DNA from: Basidiobolus meristosporus CBS 931.73
Lineage: Eukaryota; Basidiobolomycota; Basidiobolomycetes; Basidiobolales; Basidiobolaceae
Direction of reading: 5' to 3'
Assembly: GCA_002104905.1 (NCBI GenBank)
Contig: MCFE01000991.1
Coordinates: forward strand, 1 to 21,322
DNA length: 21,322 nt
Shown here: positions 9,591 to 21,322 of the stretch, piece by piece
Layout: the number at the start of each line of letters is the position of its first letter
Numbering within the stretch: position 1 is the stretch's first letter
Notes under the pieces: model-generated
The model's database searches: none
Seen by the model: the letters and a program-made list of their open reading frames with translations, nothing else
Told to the model about the DNA's origin: nothing
Made by a program: the position numbers and the translations under genes

Positions 9591-9824
9591 ATGGCAAACT
9601 ACCCTTTCAGCCGAGAATTCACTGATGAGGCCTTGGACAATAATGGACACAAGAGCTACTCCGGAAATGGAATGACCTTCTGCGTTGCAAGAGACACAGG
9701 GACAACTCCAGAATACCACTACCCCTGGGGAAAGCTCGAAGAAAAGTTTAGAAATCGGCAGAACTTTAAGGGATACATCATGTCAAGTGGAACTCAGTGG
9801 AGCTTTACTATCTGGAGAGACTAA
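9591..9824 (+). CDS. Small protein of unknown family (77 aa)
   Basis: 77 residues, no signal peptide, one cysteine (TFC), rich in aromatics (YPW, QWSFTIW). No family recognised. Support for a real gene: codon use and G+C look more coding than the flanks, a strong GT-AG intron sits just before the ATG, a TATA-like box lies at 9474, and AATAAA follows the stop by 37 bases (9861-9866). It resembles the protein at 10715-10894: both have NNG about a quarter to a third of the way in, then G-x-T-(F/H)-C, TG, a leucine-containing helix-like stretch, KG, and a C-terminal T-Q-x-W or Q-T-W ending. The two are on the same strand 1.1 kb apart, which fits an old tandem duplication. The N-terminus is uncertain because the upstream exon is in frame. 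Confidence 0.6.
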   Translation: MANYPFSREFTDEALDNNGHKSYSGNGMTFCVARDTGTTPEYHYPWGKLEEKFRNRQNFKGYIMSSGTQWSFTIWRD

Positions 9825-9860
9825 GAGACACATTACGCTCAGTTCAGATATGTGAACGTG

Positions 9861-9866
9861 AATAAA
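9861..9866 (+). terminator. Polyadenylation signal AATAAA
   Basis: AATAAAC 37 bases after the stop of the small gene ending at 9824. The same hexamer plus C follows the gene ending at 10894. Confidence 0.5.
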
Positions 9867-10149
9867 CAGTTTCTATATTGAAAGATGTCGGCTGTCCAAA
9901 GTAGGTTTATTGAGTATCTATGGAAGTGACCAGTATACGGTTTGGTGAACACTTGGGTTAAAAAAATAGCGTATTTTTAGCATATTTCAGCATATTATGT
10001 CTGATTCCTTGCCACTGCAGTTGAAAGGTAAAACATGCATGACCGACAGTGCAGTCACCGTCACTGATTTCAATGGATAAGCAGTGGATCACTCTACCGG
10101 TTACAACCATGGGAGAATTGCTTATTGGTACTGCATGCGCACAGACCTA

Positions 10150-10467
10150 ATCAGCACTATCAACGTCATAGTACTCAAGAGTAATGACCAACAACAGGCA
10201 AATATATGCGTAGGTACTGTGTTTACCCAACATCTTGGGGTTTGGGCGATAAGCATCATTGATATTCATAGCAGCGCAAAGCCCAAAGAACTCGACGTAA
10301 CCTTTCATAAAAATATCAGTGTCATTGTTGCAAGAGATAACAAGTGTGGATATAAGATAATATATACTGATTGTCGTGGGTGTCTTTGGCTTCACCACAG
10401 TTGGCCATCCAGTCTTTGCATCTGGTTCATGCCATGCTTGACCAATCCACTCAATGTAAACAACTAT
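10150..10467 (-). other. Possible coding relic or exon, unknown
   Basis: The minus strand is open for 106 codons between TGA 10468-10470 and TAG 10147-10149 with no ATG near its 5' end. Its translation starts with a protein-like segment IEWIGQAWHEPDAKTGWP at about 10449-10396 and becomes hydrophobic near the end (AYICLLLVI). It follows a possible acceptor ATAG. An equally long frame lies on the opposite strand. Could be an exon, a gene relic or chance. Confidence 0.2.
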
Positions 10468-10477
10468 TCATCTGGAA

Positions 10478-10508
10478 GGTGCGTGGATGGTGCGTGGATG
10501 GTGCGTTA
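10478..10508. repeat. 11-bp tandem repeat
   Basis: Two perfect units of GGTGCGTGGAT and a third partial one (GGTGCGTTA). Confidence 0.8.
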
Positions 10509-10714
10509 CCAGTGTACAGTCAATCTGGATTGCTTGCTATAGATTGTTGCGGGCTGTATGGAAGAAGTGAGGCGTCAAAATGCCGTAGTATTGAGTCACT
10601 GTCTGGGCGGGATAGATTTAAGGCAGCAGTTGTGGACTTGTCGGTCTTAAGACTTATTACACTGCACTTCCTCAACCATGGTATCCAATTAAGAAGCTTG
10701 TATGTATTCTGCTG

Positions 10715-10894
10715 ATGTCAGAAAAAATTGCCAGAGCCAAGAGAGCTAACAATGGAGACTACGCCTTGGTCACAGTCAAAGGGACTCACTGTACTTGGAA
10801 AGGACTCGCAACTGGCGAGCTGTCCTTCAAGCAGCTCCTCGAAGGGAGAAAGGGGACCGCCTACGTGGATAGCCAGACATGGGTAATCTTGTAG
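10715..10894 (+). CDS. Small protein of unknown family (59 aa)
   Basis: Short frame from ATG 10715 to TAG 10892-10894. The protein is basic (SEKIARAKRANNG at the N-terminus), has one cysteine in GTHC, and ends QTWVIL. No family recognised and no signal peptide. Evidence for a gene: coding-like codon use, unusually high G+C for the region, AATAAA at 10974-10979, and resemblance to the 77-residue protein at 9591-9824 in the order NNG ... G-T-(F/H)-C ... TG ... KG ... (T)Q-x-W. An upstream exon cannot be excluded because no TATA box is seen close to the ATG. Confidence 0.5.
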   Translation: MSEKIARAKRANNGDYALVTVKGTHCTWKGLATGELSFKQLLEGRKGTAYVDSQTWVIL

Positions 10895-10973
10895 GGTCTG
10901 GCTGGTGTCTACGTTTCCGGGGGACTCTTAGAGATGTTGCTGTTAAGGATATTTAGCTGAAGCATTGTGAAGT

Positions 10974-10979
10974 AATAAA
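10974..10979 (+). terminator. Polyadenylation signal AATAAA
   Basis: AATAAAC 80 bases after the stop at 10894. Confidence 0.45.
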
Positions 10980-11101
10980 CATTCCTTTGACCCAGCTGTG
11001 TTATGCTCATTGCACTGTGAGCATCTAACATATGTGTGAATTGCTACTTTGATTGTCTAAGTGTAGCGTGAAAGCAGAGTTTTGCCCGGCCATGCTTTTG
11101 A

Positions 11102-11508
11102 TCAGATATATGTGTACAACTGCCATGTATAGGCATCCGTTCCAGCAATCAGTATCGTGTCACACGCTCCGCACTTCTGAAGACAATCATTTTCTGTTGC
11201 GGTCAATATGATATGGCACCCCTGAGGTCTTTCAGGTACCTGGAGAGGTCTTCGCTTTTGCCTTTGTAGATGATATAGGCCGTATAAGCATTGGTTTCCG
11301 GTAACCTTGATTCCTTGGCTTTAGAAAAGGCATTGTTTAACTTCTGTTACTAAACAATTTGGATCTCAGCATATATCCCAAATAACCTTGAGACCGTTAT
11401 GCACCTATCAGCGGAACACCACTTTGAGTCTGTAGCATCTATGTAAGTGTTAAAGAAATCAACGTGTCTCCGCTGGTCTAAGGAGAAAAAATAGAGTATC
11501 TTGAACTC
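11102..11508 (-). pseudogene. Decayed gene of unknown function, copy 2
   Basis: No family recognised. The minus-strand frame from 11508 reads protein-like for about 100 codons: LDQRRHVDFFNTYID, DSKWCSADRCITVSRLFG, IYAEIQIV, then in-frame TAG TAA at about 11346-11351, then LNNAFSKAKESRLPETNAY and KGKSEDLSRYLKDLRGA, ending at TGA 11203-11205. A one-base shift near 11210 lets the reading continue as TATENDCLQKCGACD...TDAYTWQLY to TGA 11102-11104. Matching pieces occur at 1-232. The protein was therefore real in an ancestor and both local copies are broken, each differently. Codons and conserved Trp, Cys and Phe positions suggest a soluble protein; function cannot be given. Confidence 0.55.
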
Positions 11509-12262
11509 TTATTTCGAGTACTCCTATAAAATAAAGCATCTTGCAGCCATACAAGTATTTTGCTAGATGCTGAGCTCCGCAACCTTAGCTATTGTACCTA
11601 GAAAGAGCATGGCAAATTTGGTGAGTTGCCTACTGGTCCACACTTCAGGTGCAATATAGAGTGAAGCTTACAATATGTTTACCCACATTGACTTAAGCTA
11701 GAAATACAAAGTGCCAGCAATTGACTATATAGATAAAGTTGGAAATAATAAGCATTTGCTTTGCTCTTATATCACTCAAATACCTTATTACTCAACTTGG
11801 CTAAGTGTCTATTAGCAGTTTATGTATTTGGGAGTTTGCCTGCAGGTTAAGTGGCCTTAAAAAAAGGTCAAAAAATGGATTTTCTCCAACACAATGGGTG
11901 AGACACAGAGGCTACTTGGCATGTAAATGTAGAGCTATGTTACACATTCTGTGGCCAAGTAAAGGTCTGCTGTGCCCCTCTGGCACATGATGGCACTATT
12001 CGGCACTCATGGCTCAATGTGGCACTATTCAACGGAACAGGTCTATGATATGGATCTTTTGGTTTGGCTAAACTTACAATTTTCAATATCTCAGGTTCTA
12101 TTGTTTTTACAGACAAGGATAAATTCTTTCTCGGGGGTGAATAGGCTGAATAACCTTTCCACAAGATTTGGTAATATGCTATCGTGAAATTCACACTTAC
12201 TAGGTGTGTGACAAGTATTACTGTTGTCCAAGGTTGATGATTCTGTAAACAGAATAGGAGAT
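11310..12262 (+). repeat. Dispersed direct repeat, copy 2
   Basis: Longer counterpart of 1-480. Matching blocks are 11318-11540 against about 14-240, 11810-11850 against about 290-325, and 12130-12262 against about 331-465. The sequences 11545-11800 and 11855-12125 are present only here. The second of these contains a short series of TGGCACTATTC/GGCACT-type repeats at about 11983-12030. Overlaps the decayed gene at its left end. Confidence 0.75.
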
Positions 12263-12846
12263 TTTAAAGCGCTTCAGTTAAACCTTTTTCGAATAACTGT
12301 CACACAGATACAACACGCTTTACGATACAGTTGAAAGAAAAAGATGCGATATCGAAGAGAGTGTTATTGTAGAGTCAATGGCAACTACTTCAACGAGTAT
12401 TCTGGGTGTAATTTCCCGCTTAAAAGCTTGTCCAAGGTGTTTTTAGTCGCTGTACTTCTTGATAGACGTGCGGTGCTTGTGTGCAGAACGTGATTTTCTC
12501 TTGGACAGTTGTTCTTCAGATACCGGGAACGAAAACAGATATGTTTAATAAACGATATCCGAAACAATTGGAATGTTTGTACTTCACAACGCCTACACTG
12601 AATAATGAGCCTGCTACACGGGATACTCTACTATTTTGGGTTTATTTCCCAATTTGTCCAAGTTGCGAACCCGATTGAAAACCCAGTTTATACTCCGAAT
12701 ACGTGGTAAATGATGATCAGCAACTCAACCGCAGATTTTGATAAACTATTAAAATTCCAGATAGTCGGCCAATCAATAACAGGCAGCAAAATGTCGATGG
12801 ATCCTACCATACAAACTCCATCACAATCAAATAAACATACATTTAC
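12263..12846. other. Non-coding interval
   Basis: Two overlapping frames of about 60 codons on opposite strands (12385-12567, 12481-12678) have no supporting signals. Nothing else seen. Confidence 0.4.
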
Positions 12847-13137
12847 CTTGATTCCTTGATAAATCTGGCGAAGTCTTGCACATCAGGGTCACCAAGGATC
12901 AATCTCTAAGTGGGTGTCGCTGAATATGAGGGTTCCAACATTTGTGAAGTGTCAGGAGTAACCTTGTTCTGAGGTGAAGAACTCTGAGAGCCCAAATGCT
13001 TTAAGGGCAGCATATCTGTATGGTGAGGCAGGTAGATCTAGAGCCATAGAGTAGAGGCAATACACTGCGAACTTGGCCAACCTGGTATAGTCACTTTTAG
13101 ACTGAGGGTCAAGTTTGTAGTATCCGTATTAAGCCAA
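12847..13137 (-). mobile_element. Relic of a non-LTR retrotransposon (RT C-terminal part)
   Basis: The minus-strand translation matches the C-terminal third of the reverse transcriptase at 19522-21086, in the same order. LAKFAVYCLYSMALDLPASP and YRYAALKAFG correspond to LDKFAVWCITSLVTHLPECP and YRHAILGAFG; after a frame break, ILGDPDVQDFARFI corresponds to ILGEPEVKKFAEFI. Identity is moderate, so this is an older or different subfamily, broken by stops and frameshifts. No 3' end or catalytic motifs remain. It has the same orientation as the two terminal copies, 3' end toward the centromere, which fits past insertion at a chromosome end that is now internal. Confidence 0.75.
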
Positions 13138-13196
13138 CTTTTGTATTTAAAGAAATAAGGAAAGTATCAAGGAAGTTATGAGTTATTGGCAAATCA

Positions 13197-13272
13197 TTAG
13201 TGATTGATTTACAATGCACCGAGATCATTTTTGGTTAGTGATTGATTTACAATACACTGAGATCATTTTTGG
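13197..13272. repeat. 38-bp tandem duplication
   Basis: Units 13197-13234 and 13235-13272 differ at two or three bases (TTAGTGATTGATTTACAAT start, GATCATTTTTGG end). After it, a + strand frame (IFGYLREIQDVEKPKVDAYL, then NGVRHLNRELLLI) is open for about 45 codons to 13364; it may be a gene fragment but has no other support. Confidence 0.85.
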
Positions 13273-13489
13273 TTACCTAAGAGAAATCCAAGACGTAGAG
13301 AAACCAAAAGTGGATGCTTACCTAAATGGGGTCAGACACCTGAATAGGGAGCTGCTGTTGATATAATGCCTATCTGGAGATGACCACCCTGGAGGACACC
13401 CTAACATTGCGACGATAATACATTCTAAAAATCAACGGTAATCCATTCTAGATATACCAAATTGCCTCAAATTATTAAGCGGTCCTTCA

Positions 13490-13496
13490 TATAAAT
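13490..13496 (+). promoter_or_regulatory. TATA-like box before the reductase gene
   Basis: TATAAAT, 48-54 bases before the ATG at 13544. The spacing is the same as that of the TATA boxes before the local eukaryotic genes (33-66 bases). Confidence 0.5.
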
Positions 13497-13543
13497 TGTC
13501 CCTGTCAACATCATATACATCAGGACGATTGAAAGAAGCAGAT

Positions 13544-15502
13544 ATGAGACACGTAATTATTGGAGGTGTAGCCGGTGGAGCCACAGCAGCCGCCCGGTTG
13601 AGAAGAGCAGATGAGTTGGCCAAGATCATTCTATTGGAGAAGGGGCCCCATATCTCTTACGCCAACTGTGGTTTGCCGTATTATATAGGCGGTGTCATTG
13701 TCGATCGTGCTAAGCTGCTGTTGCAGACCTCGCAATCGTTCGGCAAGCGTTTCCGTATTGACGTGCGGATACAGAGTGAGGTAACCGGCATTCATCCAGC
13801 GAATAAAACCCTGACAATCCGTAAGGCAAGCGGGGAAGAATACACAGAGAGCTATGACAAGCTTTTGTTGTCTCCCGGTGCCAATCCCGTCAAGCCACCT
13901 TTGGATGGTATCAACTCGGAAGGTATCTTTACACTACGCAATGTGGAAGATACGGACCATATCAAGGCCTATATCGCTGAGAAGCAGGTGAAGCGCGCCG
14001 TCGTTGTAGGAGCAGGATTTATCGGACTCGAGATGGCAGAGAGCTTACATCGTGCCGGTGTGGCCATTTCCGTAGTAGAGATGGGCAATCAAGTTATGGC
14101 ACCTATTGACTTTTCTATGGCTGCACATATTCATCAACACTTGACACAAAAAGGGGTATCTCTCTACCTTGAAGAAAGTGTGACGCACTTTCATCGCACA
14201 GAGAGCGGCCTGATCGTTTTCCTAAAGAGCGGGAATGCTATTCCGGCCGATATGGTGTTATTATCTATTGGCGTGCGTCCATCAACAGAATTGGCGCAGC
14301 AAGCAGGCTTGAGGTTAGGAGAGACGGGTGGCATCTGGGTGGATGAGCACTTGGAAACATCCCAAAAGGATATCTATGCAGTGGGTGATGCCATTGAATA
14401 TCCCCATCCGTTGACCAAGAAGCCGTGGCTCAATTACCTTGCCAATCCTGCCAATCGCCAAGGTCGAATTGTGGCTGATAACATGGTATTTGGTAATACT
14501 GTCTCTTATGAGGGAGCAATCGGCACTTCAATTGCCAAGGTATTTGACATGACCGTGGCATCTACGGGACTTGCAGCCAAGCGTCTGAAGCAACTGGGTA
14601 TGGAATACCAGAGCTCAGTAACTCACTCCTCCTCCCATGCTGGGTACTATCCGGGTGCTTTGCCCCTGACGTTAAAGTTGATTTACCACCCAACTACCGG
14701 TAAGCTTTATGGTGCACAATGTGTGGGTTACGAAGGTGTGGATAAGCGTATTGATCAGATAGCCGGACTCATTAAGCATGGCGGGACTGTATACAACCTG
14801 AAAGAAACAGAGCACTCCTATGCCCCTCCGTACTCATCTGCTAAAGATCCTATAGCTATCGGCGGTTATGTCGCTTGCAATATCATTGGTGGAGCCATGC
14901 CAGCTATTTCCTGGCGCGAACTTGTTGAAGAACAAGAGAAAGTGATGATAATTGATGTCCGCACTGTGGAGGAATATTCTTTCAGTTCCATTCCAGGTGC
15001 GATTAATATTCCCTTGGACGATTTACGAGAACATCTTGCCGAGATCCCGACAAATAAGCCGGTTGTCCTATACTGTATCATAGGACTGCGCGGATATCTT
15101 GCTCAGCGCATATTGATGGGGCGCGGATATCAGAATGTACGTAATTTGATCGGGGGTTATAAGACTTATTCCGCCAGCATTGCTCCGGTTCCCAAGCCAT
15201 TCCCTGTGCCTTCTTCCCAGTCAGCTGCTGCTTCAACAGAAACTCCTTCAATTGCCTTGAAGGTAAATCTTTGTGCTTTACAATGCCCTGGGCCTATCTT
15301 GCAGGTGAAGCAAGCGATGGATAAGATTGCTGTTGGTGAACGTGTGGAAATCATTGCTACTGACGCAGTTTTAGCTCGTGACGCTGCTGCATGGTGCGAT
15401 GCTACAGGAAACCAACTGATCGAGAAGCATGAAGAAAAAGGACGCTACACAATTATTCTTGAAAAGGTCGCACCTACTGTTATATCCAATTCAACGCTGT
15501 AA
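13544..15502 (+). CDS. CoA-disulfide/persulfide reductase-rhodanese-TusA fusion, bacterial type
   Basis: 652-residue, intronless flavoenzyme. Domains in order. (1) Pyridine nucleotide-disulfide oxidoreductase, about 1-445: N-terminal FAD site IIGGVAGGATAAARLRR; redox Cys42 in NCGLPYY, the single-cysteine signature of CoA-disulfide reductases; NAD(P)H site VVVGAGFIGLEMAE at 153-166; second FAD motif DIYAVGDA at 276-283. (2) Rhodanese, about 455-545: DVRTVEEY and active-site loop C511-IIGLRGY. (3) TusA-like sulfur carrier, about 570-640: C581-PGPI. In bacteria such fusions reduce CoA disulfides or persulfides and pass sulfane sulfur along; that chemistry is family knowledge, not shown here. Many bacterial relatives also carry a C-terminal DsrE-like domain, absent here. 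ATG 13544 is chosen because the 16 codons before it start with TTG and the FAD motif begins right after it. TATA-like box upstream; AATAAA overlaps the stop. All key cysteines are intact. Likely horizontally acquired, possibly from a Bacteroidetes-like donor (inference from general resemblance). Confidence 0.92.
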   Translation: MRHVIIGGVAGGATAAARLRRADELAKIILLEKGPHISYANCGLPYYIGGVIVDRAKLLLQTSQSFGKRFRIDVRIQSEVTGIHPANKTLTIRKASGEEYTESYDKLLLSPGANPVKPPLDGINSEGIFTLRNVEDTDHIKAYIAEKQVKRAVVVGAGFIGLEMAESLHRAGVAISVVEMGNQVMAPIDFSMAAHIHQHLTQKGVSLYLEESVTHFHRTESGLIVFLKSGNAIPADMVLLSIGVRPSTELAQQAGLRLGETGGIWVDEHLETSQKDIYAVGDAIEYPHPLTKKPWLNYLANPANRQGRIVADNMVFGNTVSYEGAIGTSIAKVFDMTVASTGLAAKRLKQLGMEYQSSVTHSSSHAGYYPGALPLTLKLIYHPTTGKLYGAQCVGYEGVDKRIDQIAGLIKHGGTVYNLKETEHSYAPPYSSAKDPIAIGGYVACNIIGGAMPAISWRELVEEQEKVMIIDVRTVEEYSFSSIPGAINIPLDDLREHLAEIPTNKPVVLYCIIGLRGYLAQRILMGRGYQNVRNLIGGYKTYSASIAPVPKPFPVPSSQSAAASTETPSIALKVNLCALQCPGPILQVKQAMDKIAVGERVEIIATDAVLARDAAAWCDATGNQLIEKHEEKGRYTIILEKVAPTVISNSTL

Positions 15503-15507
15503 ATAAA
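15502..15507 (+). terminator. Polyadenylation signal AATAAA of the reductase gene
   Basis: AATAAA begins at the last base of the TAA stop (15500-15502). The hexamer is in the same place relative to the stop as in the local eukaryotic genes. Confidence 0.5.
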
Positions 15508-15555
15508 CCATTCACTAGAACCTTATTTTTGCTCCCGCTTGCAACATGGAGCTAT

Positions 15556-15660
15556 TTATTACGTGAAAAACCTTGTAAATCTAAGGATATATGCTAGTTC
15601 AATCGAACTGTTTACAACGTGAGTAATTTTGTAAATCTAAGGATATATGCTAGTTCAATC
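15556..15660. repeat. Tandem duplication, period 56 bp
   Basis: Units 15556-15604 and 15612-15660; the last 32 bases of each (TTGTAAATCTAAGGATATAT to CAATC) are identical. It lies between the reductase gene and the GST-like gene. Confidence 0.9.
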
Positions 15661-15709
15661 AAAAACTTCCTTTCCCACTATTTCTAAAATCAGAAGATAG
15701 CTTTACATA

Positions 15710-15715
15710 TTTATT
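15710..15715 (-). terminator. Polyadenylation signal AATAAA of the GST-like gene
   Basis: AATAAA on the gene strand, four bases after the TAA stop at 15720-15722. Confidence 0.55.
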
Positions 15716-15719
15716 GCTA

Positions 15720-16531
15720 TTATGCATCATCCACCAACTTGAAACTTTCTCTTGATGATACCTTTGTTAGATACTGTTGTAGGTTAGGTCTTCCTGAGAA
15801 CACTACATCGCCTTTGATTGACTTTAGATGGACCAGTAATGGGATGACGTGGACGTCAGCAGCTGTATACTTCACCCCCACAATATAAGGCCCACTTTCT
15901 AACTGGTCCTCTAGCTGATCCAGGAACAATTCTGCCTTTCGCCATTCAGCTCTGTGGAGATCATATAGAGGCTGTGCTTGTTCAGGATACTTGTAGGCAA
16001 CTAGGAAAGAATTCGTCTGCTGTAGCTTCTCACGATAAAATGGTGTATTTTGTCGCTGAATGAACTTGGTCAAGGCTTTTACACGACCCTCAAAAAATCC
16101 TTCTACAAAGGCCCTCTTACGCTCCAGTTCAACAAAATCGGATGGAGAAAACACCAAGAGAAACCCATCAATATTGTGTTAATCCAGTGAGTAATAGTTG
16201 CCATATCACTGGTGGTGTATAACTCAGTTCCAGGATAGTTGGAGTCAAGATACTCGGTAATGGTAGTGGAATCCTCCAAAATCTGATTAGTATCTGTATT
16301 TACTAAGGTAGGGACAGTGGCATATTTGTTGATCCTAGCATAAATGGTTACATATGTGCAGCAGGCGGCAGCTACATTACTATCTTACCGAAGGTATGAA
16401 GGCGAAAAGTTTTCTCCAGCTGCCAGATTGACCTCAATCACCTCAATGTCCGTAATATTCTTTTCAGCCAAAGTAAGACGAACTGATCTTGGCCACAGCG
16501 CTTGCTTGAAGGAGTAGAACTTGACTGGCAT
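15720..16531 (-). pseudogene. Glutathione S-transferase-like gene with one frame break
   Basis: Cytosolic GST or GST-like protein (conjugation of glutathione, or a related non-catalytic role). Exon 1, ATG 16531 to 16389: MPVKFYSFKQALWPRS... gives the first beta strand and helix of the thioredoxin-like domain. A 54-bp intron at 16388-16335 (GTAAGA...GCTAG) joins codon CG|G to give NFSPSYLRINKYATVPTL, containing the conserved cis-Pro motif (TVP), followed by LEDSTTITEYLD, the usual glutathione-binding E-(D/S)-S segment. The C-terminal all-helical domain follows (PSDFVELERKRAFV to the end), with the AADVHVIP-type helix. Between the domains, at about 16155-16175, the frame shifts by one base; loss of one G in the run near 16169 would explain it. 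The gene is therefore either a young pseudogene or intact with a base-call error. TATATAAG lies at 16564-16571. Length without the break would be about 250 residues, normal for the family. Confidence 0.75.
16335..16388 (-). other. 54-bp spliceosomal intron in the GST-like gene
   Basis: Donor GTAAGA, acceptor GCTAG; removing it restores a continuous GST thioredoxin domain across codon Arg (CG|G). This is the firmest evidence in the window for a eukaryotic host with short introns. Confidence 0.8.
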
Positions 16532-16563
16532 ATTTTGAATATCGAGTTTTGCTGAGCGTTGAT

Positions 16564-16571
16564 CTTATATA
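16564..16571 (-). promoter_or_regulatory. TATA box of the GST-like gene
   Basis: TATATAAG on the gene strand, 33-40 bases before the ATG at 16531. Confidence 0.6.
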
Positions 16572-16871
16572 GAAGAGTAGGTGATATTTCTGTTAGATGG
16601 ATGCCAACAGCTATTGATTGGTGTACAACGTTTGGCTTACGGATTTCAACGATCGGAATGTTCATTGGACTGGAAACTGTTTACCACTTTGGGATTATCT
16701 TTGGTCCGTGCTCAGCTATGCCGCTTTTCCTGTTTTTTAAACTCTATGACTAGTATCACCCTGCTAATTCAATCTTACTGCCAAATTAGATTCTGCAGGT
16801 ATTGTGCCTAATAAAGTAATTCTTACAGTGATTGGTAAGCAATTTAATGTGATCAGTGGCATTTAAGCCTG
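16572..16871. other. Non-coding interval
   Basis: Two overlapping + strand frames of 64 and 76 codons are not supported by any signal. Nothing else seen. Confidence 0.4.
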
Positions 16872-17513
16872 TTACTGGCTCTTAATAACTGCCTCATCAA
16901 TATCAATATCTATACCAACACTTTTGAAAGCCAAGACTTGTGCAAGGTCAGTGCCAATAGTACTGCCAAATTGCAGATCAGTGACACCAATTGCATTCCA
17001 TATTACAAGTCAACAGCAACTTCATAATAGCCCACATTGTATGGGTTGATGTTATGACTGCATTATCACATGTTTTCTGCCCAGCTATTGATATTATAAT
17101 TTGGCAACAACATGAATAGATCCAATAAATTGTGCTGAAGACCCAAACAATAGAAAATCTGGACTTCCCTGTACACATTTAGGTAGAGCTAAGTGCAAGT
17201 GTTGCAAAAGTAGTTTACCAGCTCCTAAACATCCCATTAGCTCAAGCAGTAGTCTATGAGCTTTTCATCTCCTGACCAGTGCCTGCTATCATTGAATAAT
17301 CATATGAAAACCGCATAATCCATGCATGGATCAAATCAATCTCACTATCATCAAAAACTGAACATCACAAAAATTTCATCAACTGCTGCTACACCTTGTG
17401 AGCACACATATGGTCCATGCTGAGCTGATTTGTGATATATTCAAGAGAAATGTGTAACAAAATTCTTGAATGGTTTAACTAAATCAAAGGGACAACTAAG
17501 TTCAGAATTATAA
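16872..17513 (-). pseudogene. Decayed coding region abutting the retrotransposon
   Basis: No family recognised. Minus-strand translation gives protein-like stretches in alternating frames, in this order from 17510: ELSCPFDLVKPFKNFVTHF, stop, IYHKSAQHGPYVCSQGVAAV, then DDSEIDLIHAWIMRFSYDYS, then INPYNVGYYEVAVDL, then GVTDLQFGSTIGTDLAQVL and GIDIDIDEAVIKSQ, ending at TAA 16872-16874. Several stops and frameshifts break it. The 3' end of the inner retrotransposon copy joins its upstream end directly, so the element probably sits in, or just beyond, the former gene. Could also be an older mobile element. Confidence 0.45.
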
Positions 17514-19130
17514 GGGGGGAGACAGTCACCAACAGGTGAAATCTTTCTTTCAGTAGAAACAAAGAAGTCAGCGCTACTGTTGTAGCTTTGATACAAGAGT
17601 GTGTAGCTGAGGGGAATTTGTAGGTAAGTTAATAAGAAGCGATGATAGTTCTTAAGTGCTCAACACACTGTTCAGTGGGAAGGGGGGTAGCAAGAGAGGT
17701 AAGAATGACCTGTGCACAACATTAATGAGGGGAATGTGATAAGGATTGATATTCATCATAAAGGGAGTGTGCTGCTGCAGATATTGCTGCCAAAGGTCTG
17801 TCAAGTACTTCAGGTAGGCCAGCTTGGGTTTTTCTGACTGCAGAATAAATTCAGCAAACTTCTTGACTTCAGGACCTCCAAGTATAGTTCTCCAGCAGGA
17901 GCCAAATGTAGTGTGGTGTGTTCACTTCCAGGCCTTAATCAGTGGGTTGTTGCAGTGGTGAAGTCTGAGATATAATCTGGCTCTAAGGTAGAGAAGTCTG
18001 ATCTTATAGGGCATAAACCCAAAAGCACCAAGAATAGCATGTCTGTAGGGGCATTCAGGCAAATGAGGCACCAAGGAGGTAATGCACCATACTGCAAACT
18101 TGTCAAGCTTAGTGCAGTCTCTAGAAGTAAGAGAGAGAAGTGGTAAGCCACATTCCAGGACAGGGAAGACAAACTGCTTGAGTAGAAGAAGGCAGCTGGG
18201 AGCTGAAGTTGTAGGAGGAGTAACAGCCAGTAGCTAGTGGAGTGCCTGTCTTGCCAGGAAAATTCTCTTCTTGGGATGTGCTCCAGAGTCTAGTCCAGCA
18301 GGAAGGAAAGGAAAGCCAAGATATGTAGCAAAAACCTGAGCAGGTAGAGTGGAGTTCTCCAAGTTGATGGGAGAGCCCAAAGGTACTATATTTGCAATGG
18401 AAAGCAGGAAATTACTCTTCTGCAGATACTGGTGGATGGTCTGGGAGTCTTGTTGCACATTGGAGGAGGATATTCTGATGTCATCAGCAAAGAGAGTAAC
18501 CAGGCAGTCAGCTGAGAGTCTTGGGAAATCATTCAGGAAGATGGCAAACAGTATAGGACCAAGCACAGTGCCTTGAACCACTCCATTAGGAACTGAGAAC
18601 ACTGGTGATTGCTCACTTGGGTGCAGAATTCTTGCTTGTGGATCCAGAAACAGGGACCTGACAAGGAGGGTGAGAGAGGTACTGGAGAAGCATTGCAACT
18701 TGGACCAAAGCAGATTTCTGTCAACTGAATCAAAGGCCTTAGTAATATCAAACAGAACTGAGGGATACTAGCACTGGAGAGAGTGATCTTGGCTAAGTAT
18801 GACTGCATATTCCAAGGAGAGGCCAGGAACAAAGCCAAACTGTGCAGGATGAAACTTGAGGGAGCCAGAGTAGAGCTCCTGAGCAAGCAGAAGCTCAAAC
18901 ACCTTTCTGCAGGTGGGCAGCAGAGATATTGGCCTGTAGGTGCTAGGATCCAGGTGCTTTCCTTTACCCTTGTACAGTGGCAGAACATTTGCAAAGGACC
19001 ATTCCTCAGGAGTAGAAAGCTGGGCTGAGCATTGCTGAAACAGTGGAAGCAGAAGTGCAGACATGGCCTTGGTACTAGTCCTCAGAAGCTCATAGGAGAT
19101 TGTGTCCACACCTGGAGCAGTAGAGTTGGG
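17514..19130 (-). mobile_element. Telomere-associated non-LTR retrotransposon, inner copy (5'-truncated, defective)
   Basis: Near-identical to 19280-21086 over its whole length. The 3' end is defined by the shared end CTGTCTCCCCCC at 17514; the 5' end stops at 19130, where the sequence passes from element (…GAGTTGGG) to TTAGGGTTAGGGG. Compared with the outer copy it lacks about 190 bp more at the 5' end. Its reverse-transcriptase frame keeps APGVDTISYELL, YRPISLLPTCRKVFELLL, QGTVLGPILF and FADD but is cut by three stops: TAG at 18768-18770, TAG at 18234-18236 and TGA at 17922-17924. In the outer copy these codons are AAG, AAG and AGA. A one-base insertion lies near the end of the frame at about 17763. 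No longer able to make a full protein. Confidence 0.9.
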
Positions 19131-19143
19131 TTAGGGTTAGGGG
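19131..19143 (+). repeat. Interstitial telomeric repeats
   Basis: TTAGGGTTAGGGG directly at the truncated 5' end of the inner retrotransposon copy, in the same orientation as the terminal telomere. Looks like the remnant of a former chromosome end. Confidence 0.8.
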
Positions 19144-19279
19144 AGGTGTTGTGCATCAACATTTAAAACTTGGCCCATTTTACTCCGTTTAAAATCTAGT
19201 ACCCTAACTGATTTTCCCTAACCCAAACATAACAAATCCCAGTTACAGTTAATTTTATCCCACCTCAGAATCTATTTTA
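19144..19279. other. 136-bp spacer between retrotransposon copies
   Basis: Sequence not found elsewhere in the window. It contains two CCCTAA units, 19202-19207 and 19216-19221 (the latter followed by CCC), in the orientation opposite to the telomere. No gene. It could be element sequence from a different truncation, filler DNA from repair, or a decayed telomere patch. Confidence 0.5.
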
Positions 19280-21086
19280 GGGGGGAGACAGTCACCAACA
19301 GGTGAAATCTTTATTTCAGTTGAAACAAAGAAGCCAGCGCTACTGTTGTAGCTTTGATACAAGAGTGTGTAGCTGAGGGGAAATTGTAGGTAAGTTAATA
19401 AGAAGTGATGATAGCTCTTCAGTGCTCAAGACACTGTTCAGTGGGAAGGGGGGTAGCAAGAGAGGTAAGAATGACTTGTGAACAACATTAATGAGGGGAA
19501 TGTGATAAGGATTGATATTCATCATAAAGGAGTGTGCTGCTGCAGATATTGCTGCCAAAGGTCTGTCAAGTACTTCAGGTAGGCCAGCTTGGGTTTTTCT
19601 GACTGCAGAATAAATTCAGCAAACTTCTTGACTTCAGGTTCTCCAAGTATAGTTCTCCAGCAGGAGCCAGGTGTTGTGTGATGTGTTCTCTTCCAGGCCT
19701 TAATCAGTGGGTTGTTGCAGTGGTGAAGTCTGAGATATAATCTGGTTCTAAGGTAGAGAAGTCTGATCTTATAGGGCATAAACCCAAAAGCACCAAGAAT
19801 AGCATGTCTGTAGGGGCATTCAGGCAAATGAGTCACCAAGGAGGTAATGCACCATACTGCAAACTTGTCAAGCTTAGTGCAGTCTCTAGAAGTAAGAGAG
19901 AGAAGTGGTAAGCCAAATTCCAGGACAGGGAAGACAAACTGCTTGAGTAGAAGAAGGCAGCTGGGAGCTGAAGTTGTAGGAGGAGTAACAGCCAGTAGCT
20001 TGTGGAGTGCCTGTCTTGCCAGGATAATTCTCTTCTTCAGGTGTGCTCCAGAGTCTAGTCCAGTAGGAAGGAAAGGAAAGCCAAGATATGTAGCAGAAAC
20101 CTGAGCAGGTAGAGTGGAGTTCTCCAAGTTGATGGAAGAGCCCAAAGGTACTGTCTTTGCAATGGAAAGCTGGAGATTATTCTTCTGCAGATACTGGTGG
20201 ATGGTCTGGGAGTCTTGTTGCACATTGGAGGAGGATATTCTGATGTCATCAGCAAAGAGAGTAACCAGGCAGTCAGCTGAGAGTCTTGGGAAGTCATTCA
20301 AGAAGATGGCAAACAGTATAGGACCAAGCACAGTGCCTTGAACCACTCCATTAGGAACTGAGAACACAGCTGATTGCTCACTTGGGTGCAGAATTCTTGC
20401 TTGTGGATCCAGAAACAGAGACCTGACAAGGAGGGTGAGAGAGGTACTGGAGAAGCATTGCAACTTGGACCAAAGCAGATTTCTGTCAACTGAATCAAAG
20501 GCCTTAGTAATATCAAACAGAACTGAGGGATACTTGCACTGGAGAGAGTGATCTTGGCTAAGTATGACTGCATATTCCAAGGAGAGGCCAGGAACAAAGC
20601 CAAACTGTGCAGGATGAAACTTGAGGGAGTTAGAGTAGAGCTCCTGAGCAAGCAGAAGCTCAAACACCTTTCTGCAGGTGGGCAGCAGAGATATTGGCCT
20701 GTAGGAGCTAGGATCCAGGTGCTTTCCTTTACCCTTGTACAGTGGCAGAACATTTGCAAAGGACCATTCCTCAGGAGTAGAAAGCTGGGCTGAGCATTGC
20801 TGAAACAGTGGAAGCAGAAGTGCAGACATGGCCTTGGTACTAGTCTTCAGAAGCTCATAGGAGATTGTGTCCACACCTGGAGCAGTAGAGTTGGGAAGCC
20901 TCTTGAGCACATTATGGATTCTCCTTTGATCAAGTGCAAGTGGGATGGGCAGAGTCTTGAAGTCAGGATGAAAGCCAGGAGTTGAGTACTGCTTTGTAGA
21001 GAAGAAGATGTTAGCCAGCTGTTCTGTTGAAGGTAACTTCCTGGAAGAGGGCCTCATTGCCCTGTAGAGTCTTGATACTGTTCTTG
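19280..21086 (-). mobile_element. Telomere-associated non-LTR retrotransposon, outer copy (5'-truncated)
   Basis: About 1.8 kb. The 3' end at 19280 (…CTCCCCCC on the element strand) is the same as in the inner copy; there is no poly-A tail and a 3' untranslated region of about 240 bp follows the coding frame. The 5' end is cut by the telomere at 21086/21087. The endonuclease domain and any first frame expected in a full element are therefore missing. The element points with its 3' end to the centromere, the direction expected if reverse transcription began at a chromosome end. The 3' terminal CCCCCC before TAAAA could pair with telomeric G-rich ends, but this is inference. Confidence 0.9.
19522..21086 (-). 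CDS. Non-LTR retrotransposon reverse transcriptase, 5'-truncated
   Basis: RNA-directed DNA polymerase that would copy the element RNA into the chromosome. The frame is open from the telomere junction to TGA 19522-19524; the first internal ATG (21057) would give 511 residues, but upstream codons (TVSRLYRA) continue without a stop, so the true start is lost. Numbering from that Met: APGVDTISYELL 59-70; YRPISLLPTCRKVF 119-132; FVPGLS 154-159; motif A FDITKAFD 181-188 (Asp182); motif B QGTVLGPILF 240-249; motif C FADD 268-271 (Asp270, Asp271). The catalytic aspartates are all present. The C-terminal 200 residues form the conserved tail shared with the relic at 12847-13137; no zinc knuckle or RNase H seen. 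An intact fragment, but probably not expressed without its 5' end. Confidence 0.88.
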
Positions 21087-21322
21087 TTAGGGGTTAGGGT
21101 TAGGGTTAGGGTTAGGGTTAGGGTTAGGGTTAGGGTTAGGGTTAGGGTTAGGGTTAGGGTTAGGGTTAGGGTTAGGGTTAGGGTTAGGGTTAGGGTTAGG
21201 GTTAGGGTTAGGGTTAGGGTTAGGGTTAGGGTTAGGGTTAGGGTTAGGTTAGGGTTAGGGTTAGGGTTAGGGTTAGGGTTAGGGTTAGGGTTAGGGTTAG
21301 GGTTAGGGTTAGGTTAGGGTTA
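21087..21322 (+). repeat. Telomere (TTAGGG repeats), right chromosome end
   Basis: First unit TTAGGGG at 21087-21093, then almost perfect TTAGGG to the last base. Two 5-base variants, TTAGG, occur at 21244-21248 and 21309-21313. The G-rich strand runs 5'->3' outward, as expected at a right-hand end. The array may continue beyond the window. Confidence 0.98.

Follow-up and report, generated by a model that had tools for sequence, protein, structure and literature searches.

A Bacteroides-type CoADR-rhodanese-TusA gene family, probably functional, in the genome of the fungus Basidiobolus meristosporus

INTRODUCTION

How did a gene that resembles a Bacteroides sulfur and redox enzyme come to lie near a chromosome end of a fungus, and does it still encode a working protein there? 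Basidiobolus meristosporus lives in association with the gut of amphibians and reptiles (PMC7466969, PMC10964425), and genome-wide transfer of gut-bacterial genes into strain CBS 931.73 has already been published. Tabima et al. 2020 (PMC7466969) reported 806 horizontal-transfer candidates in this strain, 5% of its genes; 61% of the candidates are intronless, oxidation-reduction is their top GO term, and Bacteroidetes are among the donors. Because such a share of the genes is already on record, the surprise of a further case is limited. The words 'rhodanese' and 'sulfur' do not occur in the main text of that paper, and what the present analysis contributes beyond that main text is the loss of a domain, the division into two paralogue groups, the series of deletions and the test of selection. 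Our literature searches, which left most subscription papers outside, found no paper joining coenzyme A disulfide reductase, rhodanese and TusA, and none joining persulfide reductase, fungi and horizontal gene transfer. No paper was found on Basidiobolus with sulfide or subtelomeres, as judged partly by titles.

RESULTS

An intact reductase-rhodanese-TusA frame in the window

The window, that is, the whole stretch of 21,322 nucleotides analysed here, is contig C1303 of an assembly of 89.0 Mb in 1311 contigs. An earlier note, made from the letters alone, had described a complete 652-codon frame with FAD and NAD motifs and three conserved cysteines, and our analysis bore out both points (Table 1). 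Pfam placed Pyr_redox_2 at residues 2-285, Pyr_redox_dim at 331-432, Rhodanese at 463-544 and TusA at 573-641, and found no DsrE domain in the protein. FAD and NAD domains and a dimerisation domain make up residues 1-446, and the redox core carries the single Cys at position 42-43 of the FAD/NAD(P)H disulfide-reductase type. The catalytic cysteines are kept. C42, C511 and C581, in the motifs NCGLPYY, YCIIGLR and CPGP, were all invariant in a 32-sequence alignment, and C511-IIGLR fits the CxxGxR catalytic loop of a C-terminal rhodanese domain.

Table 1. Features of the window, in window coordinates
Feature	Position	Strand	Remark
Block collinear with C768, 96-97%	9802..17149		allele or recent chromosome-end duplicate
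5′ flank common to all six A-type loci	12593..13406		sole match outside these: a 149-base piece on C1050
Stretch deleted from C363, C78 and C1135	13407..14995		one identical junction in all three
TATAAAT motif, 48-54 bp 5′ of ATG	13490..13496	+	common to A copies C768 and C786; weak promoter evidence
A-type CoADR-rhodanese-TusA gene	13544..15502	+	652 codons + TAA, intronless, without in-frame stop
CoA-disulfide/persulfide reductase part, residues 1-446	13544..14881	+	Pfam; 3icr, 3nta and 8a56 sequence matches; fold
Cys42 codon, redox cysteine next to flavin	13667..13669	+	NCGLPYY
Rhodanese domain	14930..15175	+	PF00581
Cys511 codon, rhodanese cysteine	15074..15076	+	YCIIGLR; aligned to rhodanese loop of 3icr and 3nta
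TusA domain	15260..15466	+	PF01206
Cys581 codon, in TusA	15284..15286	+	CPGP motif
AATAAA overlapping stop codon	15502..15507	+	weak
GST-like gene, two exons, one intron-like gap, frame broken	15720..16532	-	related open frame on C780
Two head-to-tail 5′-truncated LINE-type reverse transcriptase (RT) copies	17577..21090	-	between GST and telomere
Terminal TTAGGG telomere tract, 237 bases	21086..21322	+	right end of window

The AF2 model of the window protein had a mean pLDDT of 80.1 and a pTM of 0.68, with the strand and helix order of the TusA part retained. A fold search with this model matched 3icr_B with an E value of 8e-70 and a TM score by target of 0.91, and the closest solved structures by both sequence and fold were CoADR-RHD (3icr), Npsr (3nta) and CoAPR (8a56). 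The window protein (478 bits), the annotated fungal protein P0002 (482.7) and the bacterial protein P0003 (489.3) all missed the TIGR03385 CoA-disulfide reductase cut-off of 578.8 bits and are therefore not filed under that equivalog. Since the start codon of the window frame coincides with the start of the bacterial homologues and no leader has been added, the product is likely to be located in the cytosol. The protein was absent among the best 120 entries listed in each of two protein searches (7999 entries scored in the first) and therefore seems to be unannotated.

Two paralogue groups on ten contigs

A search of the fungal genome with the window protein returned 23 matching rows, 14 of which represent ten loci of the CoADR-rhodanese-TusA family; the other nine match at 25-36% identity, and two of them (C392 and C958) are matched by the rhodanese family as well. 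The window gene is thus a member of a small gene family, not a lone copy. These are ten contig loci, some of them possibly alleles or duplicate contigs, so that the number of distinct genes is perhaps below ten. They fall into two paralogue groups, the window type A (C1303, C768, C786, C363, C78 and C1135) and the P0002 type B (C13, C824 and C743, each intact with 643 codons, and C231). P0002, which is annotated at NCBI with 643 aa, corresponds to the 643-codon copy on C824. Between A and B the DNA is 79% alike; this likeness ends at the ends of the coding region, and the flanks are unrelated. The window protein is 84% identical to P0002.

Within group A, the gene and both of its borders recur on C768 at 97%. 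The C768 copy has one 1-base gap at codon 120, its alignment is without an in-frame stop, and the TAG in its match row sits just before the frame resumes after the gap. C1303 and C768 may be alleles. On C786, 366 codons are open before the contig ends. The remaining three copies (C363:1-1019, C78:2654-3187 and C1135:168374-168868) carry a 1.59-kb deletion that leaves only the rhodanese end and TusA; the remnant frame is open on C78, and stops occur at the rhodanese cysteine codon on C363 and at codon 548 on C1135. In group B, the frame on C231 is broken, yet the contig agrees with C824 at 99.7% across 6.3 kb and has extra single bases close to its end. C231 may therefore be a poor-quality duplicate contig, and both its breakage and the C768 gap could be sequencing errors. 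No empty insertion site was found in the fungal genome with either the 5′ flank or the 3′ flank plus GST as the query; beyond the A copies, the latter matched only the GST part on C780.

Degenerate long tandem arrays were observed about 1-3.5 kb upstream of B at all four loci (L009, L010, L011 and L013). They contain His-rich and Tyr/Asp/Gly-rich open frames, and more array copies lie on C13 and C231.

The DsrE tail is absent from both groups

The absence of the DsrE-like domain, to which the earlier note had drawn attention, extends from the protein to the genome. DrsE_2 had no match in the whole fungal genome, while the same search was positive in 6 of 14 control genomes, and the TusA matches in the fungal genome were family copies only (nine of nine rows). 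Among bacterial loci, 77 of 80 could be read through to the C-terminal end at which DrsE_2 finishes in P0003; two of the other three run off the contig before the tail ends, and the reading of L043 stops at codon 11. PF13686 was present in 119 of the best 120 entries listed in the first protein search (all but the fungal P0002) and in 116 of the best 120 listed in the second, where the exceptions were P0002, P0127, P0128 and P0143. The last three are closely alike and of Bacteroides type, and they probably lack DsrE as a result of cut or frameshifted ends. A and B are both without DsrE and end after TusA within a few residues of each other. The domain was most likely lost after the transfer.

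The fungal genes are nested within Bacteroides

From a species-genome scan the best 80 of 281 relatives were kept. By their titles these were Bacteroidales or Bacteroidetes throughout. A 36-row tree was built from five fungal rows, all 21 loci L018-L038 and ten of 13 selected database proteins, with P0001, P0006 and P0012 excluded; the trees were made without C768, C231 and the three deletion copies. The fungal A and B rows formed one clade (100/98) within a Bacteroides group (98/96), and this clade appeared in 100% of 200 bootstrap trees. A faster 52-row tree agreed (SH-aLRT of 99 for the fungal clade). The exact donor was not fixed by the tree, with bootstraps of 32-77 near relatives of B. 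fluxus, B. muris and B. heparinolyticus. The gene was thus placed inside Bacteroides rather than in a vertically inherited fungal family, and because the joint A and B clade is nested there, the horizontal acquisition from a bacterium that the earlier note had supposed is well supported by the sequence data, with a Bacteroides-type source.

R2 and L610 are common to A and B and were found in 0 of 80 and 0 of 90 bacterial rows, respectively. Three more states shared by A and B are rare in bacteria (2-3 of 90), and a further one, at position 649, falls in the unalignable tail. Taken together, the shared absence of DsrE, the shared residues and the joint clade are best read as one transfer, followed by loss of the tail and then by duplication.

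Full-length Bacteroides proteins reach up to 82% identity to the window protein, and dS between the window gene and four Bacteroides loci ranged from 2.1 to saturated. Base composition was considered as evidence of origin and set aside as uninformative, since the GC3 values of A (0.467-0.505) and B (0.486-0.494) overlap or closely approach those of four Bacteroides genes (0.489-0.562). P0001, nominally the best match (1383 bits), was likewise discarded and left out of the trees; it is a metagenomic, bacterial protein of Bacteroides type, 961 aa long, in which a DsrE tail is present and the dimerisation region is duplicated internally. This duplication may be real or an assembly error.

Purifying selection in both groups and apparent relaxation in the deletion copies

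In a codon model of four sequences and 640 codons, omega was 0.104 for A, 0.120 for B and 0.042 for bacteria, so that the fungal values are 2-3 times the bacterial one. Omega = 1 was rejected for both A (2dlnL 50.0) and B (2dlnL 11.2). Because selection is strongly purifying in both groups, the enzyme is probably functional, as the earlier note had suggested from the conserved active-site residues. Between the window gene and B, dN was approximately 0.098 and dS approximately 1.06. Within A, comparison of the window gene with C786 over 366 codons gave 11 synonymous and 5 nonsynonymous differences (10 and 6 over 365 codons by a simpler count), and comparison with C768 over 651 codons gave 11 and 9. 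The three deletion copies, with ratios of synonymous to nonsynonymous changes of 14:16, 11:22 and 14:19 and stops in two of the three, look to be under relaxed selection. The A branch of the 36-row tree is about twice as long as the B branch, and at 256 columns with at least 95% conservation in bacteria A departs at 10 and B at 6. By these measures A is the faster-evolving paralogue and departs further than B from the bacterial pattern.

Expression motifs, the GST neighbour and the chromosome end

The earlier note had taken a TATAAAT and an AATAAA as a gained eukaryotic promoter and polyadenylation site. Both motifs exist at those places (Table 1), but they are short and little weight attaches to them. 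From their frequencies in the rest of the window, the chance per 100-bp stretch is about 7.5% for AATAAA, 4.8% for TATAAA and 2.3% for TATAAAT. Neither has a counterpart in B, with no TATAAA in the 120 bp before the gene and no AATAAA within 250 bp downstream of the stop. We therefore set aside the proposed gain of eukaryotic expression signals as unsupported.

The description of the neighbours held in part: the telomere tract, a short RT-like relic upstream of the gene (12991-13092; 34 residues at 56%) and a GST-like gene with an intron-like gap are all present, but the GST frame is broken. A frameshift interrupts it in the window, and the relative on C768 appears to be broken in the same way, whereas the GST is open on C78 and C1135, two contigs that have lost most of the CoADR gene. 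An open GST frame on C780:183212-184057 matches the window GST at 75% over the matching part. The proposed functional link between the two genes is therefore weak, and an operon-like arrangement was rejected.

Telomere repeats lie beyond the gene at 3.8 kb on C768, 5.6 kb in the window, 15.7 kb on C824 and 21.5 kb on C743. No terminal tract was seen on C13, C78 and C363 (both ends), on C1135 (right end) or on C786 and C231 (left end); on the last two the right end falls in or just past the gene. Subtelomeric placement is thus shown for only four of the ten loci.

A LINE-type RT element occupied the last stretch before TTAGGG at seven of eight telomeric contig ends examined; at the eighth, on C21, the last 5.5 kb lacked it. 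It abuts the tract or lies within about 0.6 kb of it on C1303, C768, C1, C2 and C22, and is 2-5 kb off on C824 and C743. The element reads away from the telomere and is often 5′-truncated; on C1303, C2 and C22 it forms head-to-tail tandems, and the inner copy in the window has a 12-base TTAGGG stretch at its truncated 5′ end. The element resembles a telomere-associated retrotransposon. The whole assembly contains 6978 perfect five-unit telomere matches on the + strand as against 73 on the - strand, suggesting that telomeres were recovered almost only at right contig ends, a bias that is probably an assembler effect.

DISCUSSION

Judging from sequence comparison, this is a genuine, integrated bacterial gene family in Basidiobolus and probably a functional one. 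The account that we favour, and that we consider likely as a whole, combines a single transfer, loss of DsrE, duplication into A and B, and a persulfide reductase as the product. A Bacteroides-type four-domain CoADR-rhodanese-TusA-DsrE gene would have been acquired a single time by an ancestor of Basidiobolus, with subsequent loss of the DsrE tail and duplication into the diverged groups A and B, which are partly subtelomeric and have stayed under purifying selection. By analogy with its characterised relatives, the product would most likely be an NAD(P)H- and FAD-dependent persulfide/polysulfide (CoA-persulfide) reductase. In those reductases Cys42 is named as the active site, the rhodanese cysteine takes sulfane sulfur, and bound CoA shuttles the sulfur to Cys42 on the flavin side (PMC9405070, PMC7969121). 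The A. fulgidus enzyme was reported to have no CoA disulfide activity, and the same paper says likewise for bacterial enzymes (PMC7969121); persulfide and polysulfide are therefore favoured as substrates, and CoA-disulfide reduction is less likely, as a side activity. In the fungal protein, Cys511 would take sulfane sulfur, possibly supplied by Cys581 of TusA, which may pass sulfur to or from the rhodanese domain. Bound CoA would bring the sulfur to Cys42 at the flavin, and reduction by NAD(P)H would yield sulfide and CoA-SH. The fungal thiol and CoA pools could thereby be protected in the sulfide-rich vertebrate gut.

Several other explanations deserve consideration, three of which concern the origin of the gene. 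Bacterial contamination or an assembly chimera could have put a Bacteroides gene on a fungal contig, as the missing intron and the identities of up to 82% to full-length Bacteroides proteins might suggest. However, the gene recurs with both borders on C768 (97%) and in part on C786, C363, C78 and C1135, a diverged paralogue lies on C824, C743, C13 and C231, and no DsrE tail follows the window gene. A contaminant would match Bacteroides loci closely, whereas dS to four such loci is 2.1 to saturated, compared with approximately 1.06 to B. A GST-like gene, LINE-type RT copies and a telomere share the window contig with the gene, and the second collinear contig refutes a chimera unless both contigs were built from the same misjoined reads; contamination or chimerism is very improbable. 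Ancient vertical inheritance in eukaryotes with loss elsewhere can be given practically no weight. No point in its support was found; P0002 was the only name-recognisable eukaryotic entry among the best 120 listed in both searches, where most rows are nameless, and the fungal clade is nested within one bacterial genus. Two independent transfers from related, possibly unsampled Bacteroides donors, with part of the purifying selection having happened in bacteria, would fit the unrelated flanks of A and B and their synonymous distance of about 1.06, which resembles a value between Bacteroides species (1.23 for L019-L022). This is nevertheless unlikely, as A and B form one clade (100/98) in every one of the 200 bootstrap trees, have R2 and L610 in common and both lack DsrE, ending a few residues apart, as opposed to the full tail in 77 of 80 bacterial loci.

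The other two explanations accept the transfer and concern what the gene does now. Group A might be a decaying subtelomeric gene that is open merely by recency, with B as the working gene; three A copies carry the 1.59-kb deletion, C768 has its 1-base gap, A evolves faster and the adjoining GST is broken. We regard decay as rather unlikely, because omega for A is 0.104 with neutrality rejected, and because the window gene and C786, which differ by 11 synonymous and 5 nonsynonymous changes, are both open throughout the part seen. Alternatively, instead of reducing persulfides, the protein might carry sulfur in the manner of TusA or act simply as an NADH oxidase. The full TusA domain is kept, and NADH oxidase activity was reported for A. 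fulgidus Npsr (PMC7969121), but the best matches in sequence and fold are rhodanese-bearing reductases of persulfide and CoA disulfide, both cysteines required for persulfide chemistry are retained, and no DsrE partner domain was found in the fungal genome, so that a carrier or oxidase is improbable. Single transfer of a persulfide reductase followed by duplication therefore remains the reading that we prefer.

We also put forward, tentatively and as a possibility short of probable, that Basidiobolus domesticated a Bacteroides persulfide reductase as a partly subtelomeric gene family dedicated to clearing CoA-persulfide in the sulfide-rich gut, that loss of DsrE uncoupled the enzyme from the bacterial sulfur relay, and that A and B diverged in use. 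The family is a clear case of a gut fungus that took a Bacteroides redox/sulfur enzyme, trimmed a domain, multiplied the gene and kept it under selection, and it would show the reach of bacterial sulfur handling moved into a eukaryote. Because one of the two parts has been removed by nature, it also provides a natural test of what TusA and DsrE add.

Among known systems, Bacillus anthracis CoADR-RHD (3icr), Shewanella loihica Npsr (3nta) and Enterococcus faecalis CoAPR (8a56) share with the window protein the CoADR and rhodanese fold, Cys42 and the rhodanese Cys, at 45-50% identity in fold alignments. Their matched chains stop at the rhodanese domain without TusA, whereas the fungal protein has TusA. 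P0002, the B paralogue annotated in CBS 931.73 as 'pyridine nucleotide-disulfide oxidoreductase', has the same three domains and no DsrE. It differs from the window gene in its flanks, its shorter branch and its C-terminal end, and has Phe at 381 and 430 like most bacteria, where A has Tyr. The fungal upstream DNA had, by eye, no evident likeness to bacterial upstream DNA. The nearest sampled bacterial relatives, from B. fluxus, B. muris and B. heparinolyticus, are 78-81% identical to the window protein over residues 1-641 or more. The Bacteroides enzyme of the BF638R_0572 type (PMC6158253) has the same domain order and the same cysteines, with TusA after rhodanese in both, and removal of this four-domain gene of B. 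fragilis in a bmoR-deletion strain was reported to increase sensitivity to diamide (PMC6158253). The Bacteroides four-domain enzyme carries a DsrE tail, whereas fungal A and B have kept the three domains that precede it.
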